Assembly: GCA_026710325.1 (NCBI GenBank)
Contig: JAPORH010000202.1
Coordinates: 1-47,018 of the forward strand
Reading direction: 5' to 3'
DNA from: Litoreibacter sp.
GTDB lineage: Bacteria; Pseudomonadota; Alphaproteobacteria; Rhodobacterales; Rhodobacteraceae
Length of the DNA stretch: 47,018 nt
Below are positions 31,152-34,710 of this stretch, piece by piece (position 1 is the first letter of the stretch; every line of letters begins with the position of its first letter). The position numbers and the translations under genes are program-made. The notes beneath the pieces are model-generated. The model made no database searches and was not told the DNA's origin. It saw only the letters and a list, made by a program, of their open reading frames with translations.

Positions 31152-31772
31152 TTAGTTCTGCGCGTAATATTCGATGACGAGGTTTGGCTCCATCATCACC
31201 GGGTAAGGCACGTCGCCCAGACCCGGGGTGCGCACGAAAGTCGCAGTCATTTTGGAGTGATCTGCCTCGATGTACTCAGGCACATCGCGCTCAGCCAGTT
31301 GCACAGCCTCCAGAACGGCCACGTTCTGCTTGGAGCGGTCACGCACCTCGATCACGTCGCCTTCTTTGACGCGATAGGATGGGATGTTGACCTTCTTGCC
31401 GTTCACTTTGACATGGCCGTGGTTCACGAACTGACGGGCCGCAAACACGGTCGGCACGAACTTGGCGCGATACACAACAGCGTCCAGACGGCGCTCTAGC
31501 AATCCGATCAGGTTTTCGCCGGTGTCGCCTTTGACACGCGCGGCTTCCAGGTAAATGCGCTTGAACTGCTTCTCTGTCAGGTCGCCGTAATAGCCTTTCA
31601 GCTTTTGCTTGGCGCGCAGCTGCAGGCCAAAGTCGGACAGTTTGCCCTTGCGGCGCTGACCGTGCTGGCCGGGGCCATATTCACGGCGGTTCACTGGGGA
31701 TTTTGGACGACCCCAGATGTTTTCGCCCATCCGGCGGTCAATTTTGTATTTGGCAGCAGTACGTTTCGTCAC
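31152..31772 (-). CDS. rpsD: 30S ribosomal protein S4
   Basis: A 206-residue primary-assembly protein of the small subunit that binds the 5' domain of 16S rRNA. It starts (M/V)[20 protein letters not shown] and has the S4 RNA-binding domain with '[30 protein letters not shown]' (about 93-122). No zinc-binding cysteines are present, as in other alphaproteobacteria. GTG 31772 is the start because AAGGAGA lies at ideal spacing. The open frame to 31844 has none. It is monocistronic, with its own promoter and terminator and a structured leader of about 100 bases. Confidence 0.98.
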
Positions 31773-31876
31773 TTGCTGATCTCCTTCGTTTGGGTTTCGA
31801 AGGGCGTTGTCCTCTCTGCAGATTTGGCTGCAGCGACAGGGCATCCCCTTGCGGGGGCCACCAACACCAATGAAGC
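31773..31876 (-). other. Structured 5' leader of rpsD
   Basis: The untranslated leader has two small hairpins: CTGCAG-ATTTGG-CTGCAG (31816-31833) and CCCC-GCAA-GGGG (about 31845-31856, minus-strand reading). Ribosomal protein genes are often autoregulated by leader structures, and S4 is a known repressor in E. coli. A similar role here is only inferred. Confidence 0.35.
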
Positions 31877-31880
31877 CGCG

Positions 31881-31908
31881 CTTATATAAGGGTTTGGCAG
31901 GGAGTCAA
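31881..31908 (-). promoter_or_regulatory. Sigma-70 promoter of rpsD
   Basis: On the minus strand TTGACT (31908-31903) is followed after 16 bases by TATAAG (31886-31881). Both hexamers match the housekeeping consensus well. The -35 element overlaps the stop codon of the upstream M50-like gene. Confidence 0.75.
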
Positions 31909-32600
31909 CGCCCGGTTTTGCCAAATCGCACATTGCTGGGATGACGCAGCGCGACCCGCAGCGTCCAGCCGATCACAACAAGGCTGATGACAAGCCAAAC
32001 CCCACCCCACATCACCGTGGTTCCGCCGAACTCTTCAGCCATCATCCGCGCGTCCGATCGCAGGAAAGACCTGCGGATTGTGTCGTCGAAAATGTCGAAC
32101 GGTACGTAGATGATGCTCGCCAATCCGATGACCCGCAGCACCAGATCATTCATCGCGTGCCCGCACCACACAGCAATCGCTAAGAGCATGGCAGCCGTCA
32201 AAGCCCCATAGGCAATCGCGAAGCCGTCGCGCATATAGGCGGCCGTGACGATGAAGGTCAAAACCGCGAGCCCGCCGGTCACGTAGCGGTCCGCCACGCT
32301 GCGCAAGGCCGCCAGCAAAAGTCCGGCCCCCAGCACCAGCGACCCCAGATAGCCCGCCGTCAAAATCGCAAAAAGATTGCCACCTTGGGTCACTGCGAAA
32401 CCGCCGACTTGCGCCGAAACGCTCATCTCCAGGACCCGACCGCCCGTCAGGACGGCGGCCAACCCGTGGGACAGCGCATGCAAGTAAACCACTGTCAATT
32501 TCAGCGGAAAGACCAGCGGCGTTTGCCAAAGCGCGAAAAGAGCCGTGATCAGGCTGAGGAGTTGCCAATGATCGAGCAGAAACTGGCGCGCGCGCCGCAT
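31905..32600 (-). CDS. M50-like integral membrane protein with a lost catalytic Glu (HAxxH)
   Basis: A 231-residue protein with about six membrane segments, like the M50-type zinc metalloproteases of Rhodobacterales and other bacteria. The family signature is normally HELSHGLAAxLTGGR. Here it reads HALSHGLAAVLTGGR (residues 41-55), with codon GCG (32477-32475) for Ala in place of the catalytic Glu. The C-terminal 'YVPFDIFDDTIRRSFLRSDA' (about 169-188) keeps Asp residues that could serve as the third zinc ligand. It may still bind metal and peptides but should not cut. Its ATG directly follows the stop of the Hint gene, so the two are translationally coupled. Confidence 0.82.
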   Translation of the reverse strand: MRRARQFLLDHWQLLSLITALFALWQTPLVFPLKLTVVYLHALSHGLAAVLTGGRVLEMSVSAQVGGFAVTQGGNLFAILTAGYLGSLVLGAGLLLAALRSVADRYVTGGLAVLTFIVTAAYMRDGFAIAYGALTAAMLLAIAVWCGHAMNDLVLRVIGLASIIYVPFDIFDDTIRRSFLRSDARMMAEEFGGTTVMWGGVWLVISLVVIGWTLRVALRHPSNVRFGKTGR

Positions 32601-33653
32601 CTAATGCGGTGCGTTCAAAAGGATCGCCGCCTCAGCTTGCGTCAAATTGCGCCGCGCGCTCGGGCCGTAGTGATGCGCATCTAGCTCAAGCTCGGGGCGA
32701 AGCGCGTAGAGAAGGTCGCGCTGCACTGCATCGAGGCTGGCCATGCTTGTCTGTGCCGGATGGAAGCTTTCGCTCGGCACGCCATTGGCCCAGACGATCT
32801 GATGGTGATCAAAAAGCAGGTGGTAATAGACGACCTCCCGCAGGGTATGGTCGACCATAACTTTATGATCATCGACCATATCCGCAGCCCGGATCAGCAC
32901 CTCATCCTCGTTGAACAAGGCGCGCGCCTTGTCTCCCTGAAACAGCATCCGATGATGGGGGGAGACCAGCAAATCCTGATCCGGCGCGCCGTCTTCCAAA
33001 GCGCCCGCCCGAATGCGGACCGGACGTAGCTCTGGCAAAACATGCAACCGCGCCCCGGAGATGCGGCGGGACCCAACCCATGTGATCTCTTGCGCCCCAT
33101 TGTCACGCGTCAGCACAGTGTCGCCGGGACCAAGGTGTTCAACCGGAACAGCGCCGCGCTCTGTGGCGATACTGGTCCCAGCTGTGAAACAAATCACGTC
33201 GCCGCGTATCCCTGTGTCGCGGCGCAAGCGTCCATGATCCTGGGAGACATAGCTCACCTCGTAATCACGCTTCGCAAAAGGCACCCCATCGGGGCACCAC
33301 AGAAGCGGGGAGCTCGCCTCGTCCGTCAAAATGGGGACCAGCAAATAGTGATAGGCGCCGTCGCTGATGATAAAACCGCCGCGTAAATCATCGTACTCGG
33401 CATCCTCCAGCGCGTCGCGATACGGTAGGTCAAACCGCCGTTCCAACGTTTTGGCGACGCGCGCGCGCAATGCGCTTTGTCCCGAGGGATGATCCAGCGT
33501 CAATATGGATTGTGACCCGTCCAACCGGGTTGCCGCCCCTTGCCAACGCCAAACCTGCCCAACACGCGGTGCGCGCCCCGGAAGCGCCGGTGCGCCATCA
33601 AGTGTTGTTTGCGTCATCGAGAGAACGTAGGTGCCGCCAAAGCCCGCGCCCAT
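32601..33653 (-). CDS. Hint domain-containing protein
   Basis: A 350-residue protein. The N-terminal part (about 1-150) starts 'MGAGFGGTYVLSMTQTTLDG' and is mixed alpha/beta without a signal peptide. The Hint domain begins at Cys155 in 'VICFTAGTSIATERGAVPVEHL' and runs to about 320, with 'LLVSPHHRMLF' (about 250-260) and 'VWANGVPSESFHP' (about 307-320). Hint domains come from inteins and hedgehog proteins and cleave the bond before the leading Cys. Whether this one cleaves is unknown. ATG 33653 has AGG upstream and fits related N-termini. A perfect CtrA-type box lies 41 bases upstream. It is coupled to the M50-like gene. Confidence 0.88.
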   Translation of the reverse strand: MGAGFGGTYVLSMTQTTLDGAPALPGRAPRVGQVWRWQGAATRLDGSQSILTLDHPSGQSALRARVAKTLERRFDLPYRDALEDAEYDDLRGGFIISDGAYHYLLVPILTDEASSPLLWCPDGVPFAKRDYEVSYVSQDHGRLRRDTGIRGDVICFTAGTSIATERGAVPVEHLGPGDTVLTRDNGAQEITWVGSRRISGARLHVLPELRPVRIRAGALEDGAPDQDLLVSPHHRMLFQGDKARALFNEDEVLIRAADMVDDHKVMVDHTLREVVYYHLLFDHHQIVWANGVPSESFHPAQTSMASLDAVQRDLLYALRPELELDAHHYGPSARRNLTQAEAAILLNAPH

Positions 33654-33693
33654 ATGTCCAACCTGCTCTTTTTTCTTGTCGTTGCTTAATTCG

Positions 33694-33708
33694 TTAACAC
33701 AAAGTTAA
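33694..33708. promoter_or_regulatory. CtrA-type box upstream of the Hint/M50 genes
   Basis: TTAA-CACAAAG-TTAA matches the CtrA consensus TTAA-N7-TTAA at all eight fixed positions. A third TTAA lies at 33686-33689. It is 41 bases upstream of the Hint start, suited to activation or repression by the CtrA response regulator, which controls motility, gene transfer agents and release genes in Rhodobacterales. Confidence 0.6.
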
Positions 33709-33804
33709 GAACTTGAGAAGAGTCATAGGCTTCAACCACTTGAGCGCAAACGAGCTGGCTCGCAAAGGAGCCATAGGTAATCGACGAAGCACAATCAGCC
33801 TGGC

Positions 33805-34710
33805 TCAGAAGCGGAACCTCAAATCTAAAGAGCCCAGGATCTGCCCCTCCTCCTGGTTATCAAACTCTTCGCTGAGATAGGTGATCCCATAAAACACGCT
33901 ACCACCCGGCACGCCCGCATTGACACCGGCGCGCAGGCGCGACCGCGTTTCGCGCGAGCCTATGCCTTGCGTGTCGAGATATTGGCTCTCGGCGACATAA
34001 GCCACGTCACCGCCAAGAAAGAAGGAGGCGCCCTCGGGCGGCCCGCTCATAATGCCGTGATACCTGTGACCGGTCGCGCTGTCGCGCAGCTGCAACCCGC
34101 GCCCTGCAACCGGCCCGACGCTGACGTCGCCCCCAATGCGAAGAAATGTCTCGGCCCCGGCCTGAAGCTCAACGAAAGGCCGCATCTCGACACCGTCGCC
34201 CTGATAGGGCCGGCCCGCTTCAAAGACTACAGTGGGCCGGATGGCATTGCCGACCTGGACGCCATCAACCCGCGGGCGCGGCGCACTAAACAGGTCATGA
34301 AACGCGTCTTGAAGCGTATCGAGCCCGGTTTGCGGGCCAACTACGATCACGTCAAGGCCAAGTGCCATCTCGGTGCCCGCGCGTTGCCAATGGGAATGCA
34401 CGCCCGCCGACAAGGCCCCTACATAGGGCCTGTTACCAGTCTGCGGGTTCGCGACATCGCGCGGGGCAATGATTTCGGCCCTGAAACGGTATTCAAGAAG
34501 GCTGCCAAACTGCTCCGGCACCTCCCCGTCCCATTCAGGGCCGCGCAGCTGGCTGACCGTGTAGCCGCCTGTCCGCCAACGATCCTCCCCATCCCCGATG
34601 AGGTCATTGTTGAAAAAGCTGCCATAGCCCAGCACCCGGCGGTCTTGCGCCGTAGCCGAGGTCGCAAAACACAACCACATCATCACGAAAAGGAGCCCAA
34701 AGGCTTTCAT
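33805..34710 (-). CDS. Lipid A deacylase LpxR family protein
   Basis: A 301-residue outer-membrane beta-barrel with a signal peptide cut near 'SATAQD' (about residue 21) and a C-terminal Phe, typical for barrels. LpxR enzymes remove the 3'-acyloxyacyl group of lipid A. The block 'SFFNNDLIGDGEDRWRTGGYT' (about 31-51) matches the N-terminal active-site region with Asn-Asp. The His in 'LQDAFHDLF' (about 138) may be the catalytic histidine. It lies between the Hint gene and modC as a single gene. The call is from motifs. The substrate modification in this organism is inferred. Confidence 0.82.
   Translation of the reverse strand: MKAFGLLFVMMWLCFATSATAQDRRVLGYGSFFNNDLIGDGEDRWRTGGYTVSQLRGPEWDGEVPEQFGSLLEYRFRAEIIAPRDVANPQTGNRPYVGALSAGVHSHWQRAGTEMALGLDVIVVGPQTGLDTLQDAFHDLFSAPRPRVDGVQVGNAIRPTVVFEAGRPYQGDGVEMRPFVELQAGAETFLRIGGDVSVGPVAGRGLQLRDSATGHRYHGIMSGPPEGASFFLGGDVAYVAESQYLDTQGIGSRETRSRLRAGVNAGVPGGSVFYGITYLSEEFDNQEEGQILGSLDLRFRF

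Follow-up and report, generated by a model that had tools for sequence, protein, structure and literature searches.

The window analysed here is a stretch of 47,018 nucleotides on contig JAPORH010000202.1 of the Litoreibacter sp. assembly GCA_026710325.1. A gene for a Peptidase_M50B-like membrane protein, predicted to be catalytically dead, lies on its minus strand at 31905–32600. The product of 231 amino acids matched Pfam family PF13398 (Peptidase_M50B) with an E-value of 2.3e-40 and 138.9 bits against a cut-off of 26, over profile positions 2–200 of 201. The initial annotation had called the gene intact, and the reading frame was indeed open, with no stop, frameshift, or truncation over 231 codons. 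NCBIfam profiles gave no match for the protein, and no relative of it was found on viral contigs. Scans of 31500–34000 were uninformative for promoters (0 promoter-like sites versus 0.7 expected) and for terminators (3 terminator-like sites versus 3.3 expected). The genome is a 4.19-Mb draft of 240 contigs with 99.75% completeness, in which the M50B gene is the sole close copy (single match). Two other M50 proteins were found in it, each with an intact HExxH and LDGG, on contig 11 (HEYGH; labelled RseP-like by us) and contig 176 (HELGH). Takeover of catalysis by another M50B copy was rejected, since the genome has no second close copy.

Upstream of the M50B gene lies a Hint_2 domain gene (32601–33653, minus strand; PF13403, E 6.7e-56), whose TAG stop directly adjoins the M50B ATG (TAGATG). 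The downstream flank of the slot is the ribosomal protein S4 gene, rpsD (31152–31844, minus strand; PF00163 and PF01479); its listed start was set mechanically, and translation probably begins further inside the listed frame. The tight coupling of M50B to the Hint gene claimed initially held within the genus, where the Hint-M50B order was present in 14/14 congener loci fetched, with small gaps or overlaps. It did not hold around non-genus relatives: no Hint relative (tblastn to the window Hint, E ≤ 1e-6) was found beside M50B in the flanks examined, which were 1.5 kb for most loci, up to 3 kb for 15, and about 10 kb for six genomes. A functional Hint-M50B pair as a general rule was not supported, with no Hint in these flanks. 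Since the link was seen only inside the genus, it gives no general clue to function and says little about mechanism. The Hint_2 gene is one of a large related set, with 9 matches in the same genome and 6–23 in congeners. Just upstream of it, at 33805–34710, is a gene for an LpxR-like outer membrane protein (PF09982, E 3.4e-20), a relative of which was present in 8/14 congener loci.

The catalytic motif of the M50B protein is HALSH instead of the family's HExxH. The plus strand at 32466–32480 is GTGGGACAGCGCATG, and the minus-strand reading is CAT GCG CTG TCC CAC, giving His41, Ala42, Leu43, Ser44, and His45 (residues 41–45). The Ala42 codon GCG lies at 32475–32477. This direct read of both strands bore out the replacement of HELSHGLAA by HALSHGLAA. 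Both histidines are present and Glu is gone. The protein passes the curated cut-off of PF13398 across the domain and lacks its HExxH motif. By descent and profile it is classed here as a PF13398 member without an intact peptidase active site.

The motif was read in overlapping sets of relatives, with a readable motif in at most 30 loci per set. An M50B match was found in 15/21 genomes of the genus set, own genome included, and in 30/295 genomes of the family set; the named-genome set had 17 loci. The class set, searched with the Pfam model, gave 86/386 at E ≤ 0.001, 35 of them over the cut-off. The phylum set gave 36/397, and three further sets of relatives 13/13, 15/195, and 6/7. The last motif count started from 116 loci with a tblastn match and gave 102 distinct sequences spanning the motif after duplicates of the same core stretch were dropped; it leaves out loci refetched at greater length or to cover other genes (L067–L086, L140–L178) and contains no other protein from the same genome. 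HExxH was present in 101/101 distinct relatives with a readable motif, 74 of them at ≥40% identity and 27 below, and HAxxH in the window protein alone (1/102), a contrast that goes beyond chance. A profile search of 53 further loci (L087–L139), some of which repeat earlier ones, gave 47 matches, each with HExxH; two also hold another HxxxH. The Litoreibacter albidus entries of the genus set (L006) and the named set (L017) are the same protein. Ala at this position in close relatives, which the initial annotation suggested looking for, was therefore not seen; it was found in one genome only, and the sets contained no second genome of the same species. An earlier count of relatives with ≥40% identity gave GAG as the Glu codon in 40/61 and GAA in 21/61. 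Since GAG was commonest, a single A-to-C change from GAG to GCG, as proposed initially, would be the simplest path to Ala42.

The remainder of the protein was compared across 55 aligned sequences (the window protein and 54 relatives), from which the duplicates L016–L018 and the broken copies L056, L060, and L061 were left out. A conserved Asp pair in the C-terminal half, D169-x3-D173 (32082–32096, minus strand), lies in the stretch YVPFDIFDDT; both Asp were present in 54/54 aligned relatives, and one Asp of the pair probably serves as the third ligand of zinc. The retention of the two zinc-binding His and the Asp-rich stretch was thus confirmed. Of 31 columns invariant across all relatives, the window protein keeps 30, the sole break being the catalytic Glu. 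Eight other rows of the 55 likewise break exactly one invariant column, none within the HExxH motif. At columns with ≥90% conservation, the window protein breaks 5/69 (E42A, R72Q, G112A, F131Y, and L146C), tied fifth of 55 rows. Gln72 (CAA, 32385–32387, minus strand) stands where 52/54 aligned relatives have Arg. At columns invariant in the 14 congeners, M50B of the window breaks 8/74, Arg72 included, the most of 15 rows. The corresponding values for neighbouring genes were 7/109 for Hint, 10/128 for modC, 2/48 for modA, 3/111 for modB, 7/272 for MFS, 2/174 for g37138, 4/176 for g39905, and 0/175 for S4; the modC, modA, modB, and MFS labels are our assumed names. The M50B excess appears mild and not clearly beyond the fast neighbours.

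The three-dimensional structure was predicted with AlphaFold2 from a 16-row alignment (pLDDT 89.3, pTM 0.85). In the model, the HALSH motif lies in a helix at 28–51, followed by a hairpin at 55–72, whose second strand (66–72) ends at Gln72, and then by more helices. This order presumably resembles the core of site-2 proteases (S2P). The best Foldseek match had E 0.62, far above the threshold of 0.001, with no S2P among the best 50 of 277 rows, and a sequence search for a solved relative found no S2P. Because Foldseek gave no credible match, the putative S2P fold of the window protein is taken from its Pfam family.

A proposed role of the HExxH Glu in S2P proteases is activation of the water bound to zinc (PMC10202637). 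In SpoIVFB, the E44Q change is reported to abolish activity, with the substrate still bound and co-purified (PMC11486902). Because Glu was present in 101 relatives and SpoIVFB E44Q is inactive, the window protein is predicted to be catalytically dead and probably does not cut peptide bonds. The dead protease of the initial annotation is well supported as a prediction on these grounds. The protein is nevertheless predicted to fold, possibly holding zinc and substrate.

Selection was investigated with a two-ratio codon model written for this analysis. The dN/dS of M50B was 0.083 on the window branch versus 0.048 elsewhere (2ΔlnL 0.33, not significant); with five taxa, saturated synonymous sites, and 7.7 neutral changes per codon (about 2.6 per site) on the window branch, these values are rough. 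The adjacent Hint gene showed a larger rise (0.114 versus 0.039), also non-significant. The M50B share of tree length on the window branch was 0.206 (0.162–0.232 in 30 bootstraps) without the congeners G010 and G014, at the top of the range of seven neighbours (0.079–0.206) but not outside it; MFS was equal at 0.206 and the other six were 0.079–0.172. Long-standing relaxation was not clearly shown by the share with all 15 rows (0.112 versus 0.108 for concatenated neighbours), an unreliable value because the fast-evolving G010 and G014 inflate the underlying tree. Averaged over the long window branch, the aligned codons clearly indicate a constrained protein. If all constraint had ended at the substitution, at most about 0.1 amino-acid changes per site would have followed, because the other 30 invariant columns are unchanged. 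Either Ala42 is recent or constraint went on after it, and the data are consistent with both. The low dN/dS proposed as a check was thus found for the whole branch, but a branch average cannot date the Ala42 change.

The distribution of the gene was examined in the genus. No M50B match was found in 6/21 genus genomes. In five of the six (G008, G009, G015, G016, and G020), the Hint and S4 matches are only 102–214 bp apart, and tblastn with M50B at E ≤ 10 gave no match in these gaps. G009 is 79% complete, yet both flanking genes are on one contig; the sixth genome, G011, is 57% complete and uninformative. A weak tblastn match in G008 (L178; E 0.002, one relative as query) was rejected as M50B, as the frame read has no HExxH; its protein looks to us like a transporter. 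The five congeners sit at four places on a tree of neighbouring proteins, several deep forks of which are weak (45–74% support); the gene would therefore have been lost or gained more than once. The M50B copies of G010 and G014 in the Hint-rpsD slot (L015, L014) are strongly diverged (45–47% identity). Because they group in the gene tree and are apart in the locus tree, transfer or gene replacement at the slot is suggested. Among the 30 family matches, 3 (G070, G112, and G228) are broken by a stop or frame break, and the G1050 copy also has stops and a frame break. The broken copies (L056, L060, L061, and L189/L192) span four other genera, and some may be assembly errors. In L182 and L185, one stop each was marked in one search and was absent from our own alignment of both. 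The gene is thus optional, as the empty slots show inside the genus itself.

Recent inactivation of a dispensable gene is the best reading of these results, and we give it about an even chance. It leads because Ala42 is confined to one genome, the gene is optional, and broken conserved sites are in mild excess. The gene encodes a multi-pass, S2P-like M50B membrane protein, whose ancestors would have had a zinc site of two HExxH His and an Asp, and Glu as general base. In the window lineage Glu would have been removed, most simply by GAG to GCG. Folding probably survives this change, and zinc and substrate may still be bound, but hydrolysis of peptide bonds is not expected. The M50B gene fills an optional Hint-rpsD slot that is empty in several congeners. 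Most likely this lineage no longer needed the protease, and Ala42 arose recently, early in a decay that has so far spared frame and fold. Ala42 may thus belong to the onset of gene loss and not to a new function. Against decay are the intact frame, 30/31 invariant columns kept, the non-significant rise of dN/dS, and a branch share within the range of the neighbours. L056, L060, and L061, the broken copies with a readable motif, all still have HE, which indicates that decay elsewhere did not start at the catalytic Glu. A first lesion at a random site would seldom hit exactly the catalytic residue, so the decay reading must assume chance and selective notice by the scan.

A retained pseudoprotease is possible but rather unlikely. 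Such a dead protein would keep its fold, perhaps with zinc bound, and would bind clients or partners that it leaves uncut (e.g., shielding or presenting membrane substrates). Ala42 supplies the missing catalytic residue, the frame is intact and adjoins the upstream gene, strictly invariant columns are kept except the catalytic one, the branch average points to purifying selection, and the fold is predicted with confidence (pLDDT 89.3). Precedents are EGY3 (PMC10978774) and SpoIVFB E44Q, which is reported to co-purify with substrate (PMC11486902). However, an inactive form shared across species was not seen, Ala being found in 1/102 sequences of one genome. No conserved feature or signal specific to a non-catalytic role was found, M50B is repeatedly absent in the genus, branch averages are blind to selection after the substitution, and genus-invariant columns are broken in mild excess (8/74). 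The chaperone, partner, or regulator role suggested in the initial annotation is accordingly not favoured over decay: one genome, an optional gene, and no role-specific signal speak against it. The specific form, a bacterial M50B pseudoprotease that lost nothing but its catalytic Glu and was kept, zinc site intact, to bind substrates or partners, is a doubtful proposition.

An error of sequencing or assembly at one base, with the real protein an ordinary active M50B, is improbable. The difference is a single base in a draft of 240 contigs, and Ala was found in 0/101 distinct relatives; however, neighbouring S4 breaks 0/175 invariant columns, which gives no hint of more frequent errors in this region, and the near-universal Arg72 is changed too, which suggests real change in the protein. 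Residual hydrolysis despite Ala42, by another acidic residue or a zinc-bound hydroxide, is very improbable: the two His and the conserved Asp pair remain, but the protein has no other HExxH, Glu58, which is close by, belongs to the predicted hairpin and not to the motif helix, and a Gln change in SpoIVFB is reported to abolish activity (PMC11486902).

If the gene is kept by selection, it would represent a minimal, one-residue change from protease to pseudoprotease in a family of bacterial intramembrane metalloproteases for which little work was found. With its zinc site intact, such a pseudoprotease would be a natural counterpart of laboratory Glu mutants that hold substrate. If the gene is decaying, it would be an ordinary case of an accessory gene whose activity has gone while the gene itself is still there. 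Close relatives with an intact active site allow direct comparison with the window protein.

In the literature searched, with thin coverage of subscription journals, no work on the function of PF13398 was noticed, and EGY3 was the only S2P pseudoprotease noticed, none being bacterial. A term search of a metallopeptidase pseudoenzyme review (PMC11266112) gave no mention of M50, S2P, site-2, or EGY3. Intact PF13398 members such as Litoreibacter albidus (L017) share with the window protein the whole-domain profile, a similar length, the same His and Asp, and, in the genus, the Hint-M50B order. The window protein differs in having Ala for Glu (Glu in 101/101) and Gln for Arg72 (Arg in 52/54). S2P pseudoproteases are already known in plants: EGY3, a chloroplast S2P homologue without HExxH, is reported to stabilise chloroplast proteins (PMC10978774). 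Here, the missing catalytic residue is in an M50B protein. Both are homologues of S2P-type intramembrane proteases without proteolysis, which is only predicted for the window protein; EGY3 is described as having no zinc-binding motif (PMC10978774), whereas the window protein loses Glu alone and both His stay. SpoIVFB E44Q also lacks the HExxH Glu of an S2P, and there fold and substrate binding are kept; it is a designed Gln mutant of an active enzyme (PMC11486902), whereas the window protein has a natural Ala in an uncharacterised family. Like iRhoms, which are rhomboid pseudoproteases (PMC3149277), the window protein would be inactive kin of an intramembrane protease family. iRhoms are of serine type and form a conserved subfamily, whereas the window protein is of metalloprotease type and occurs in one genome.
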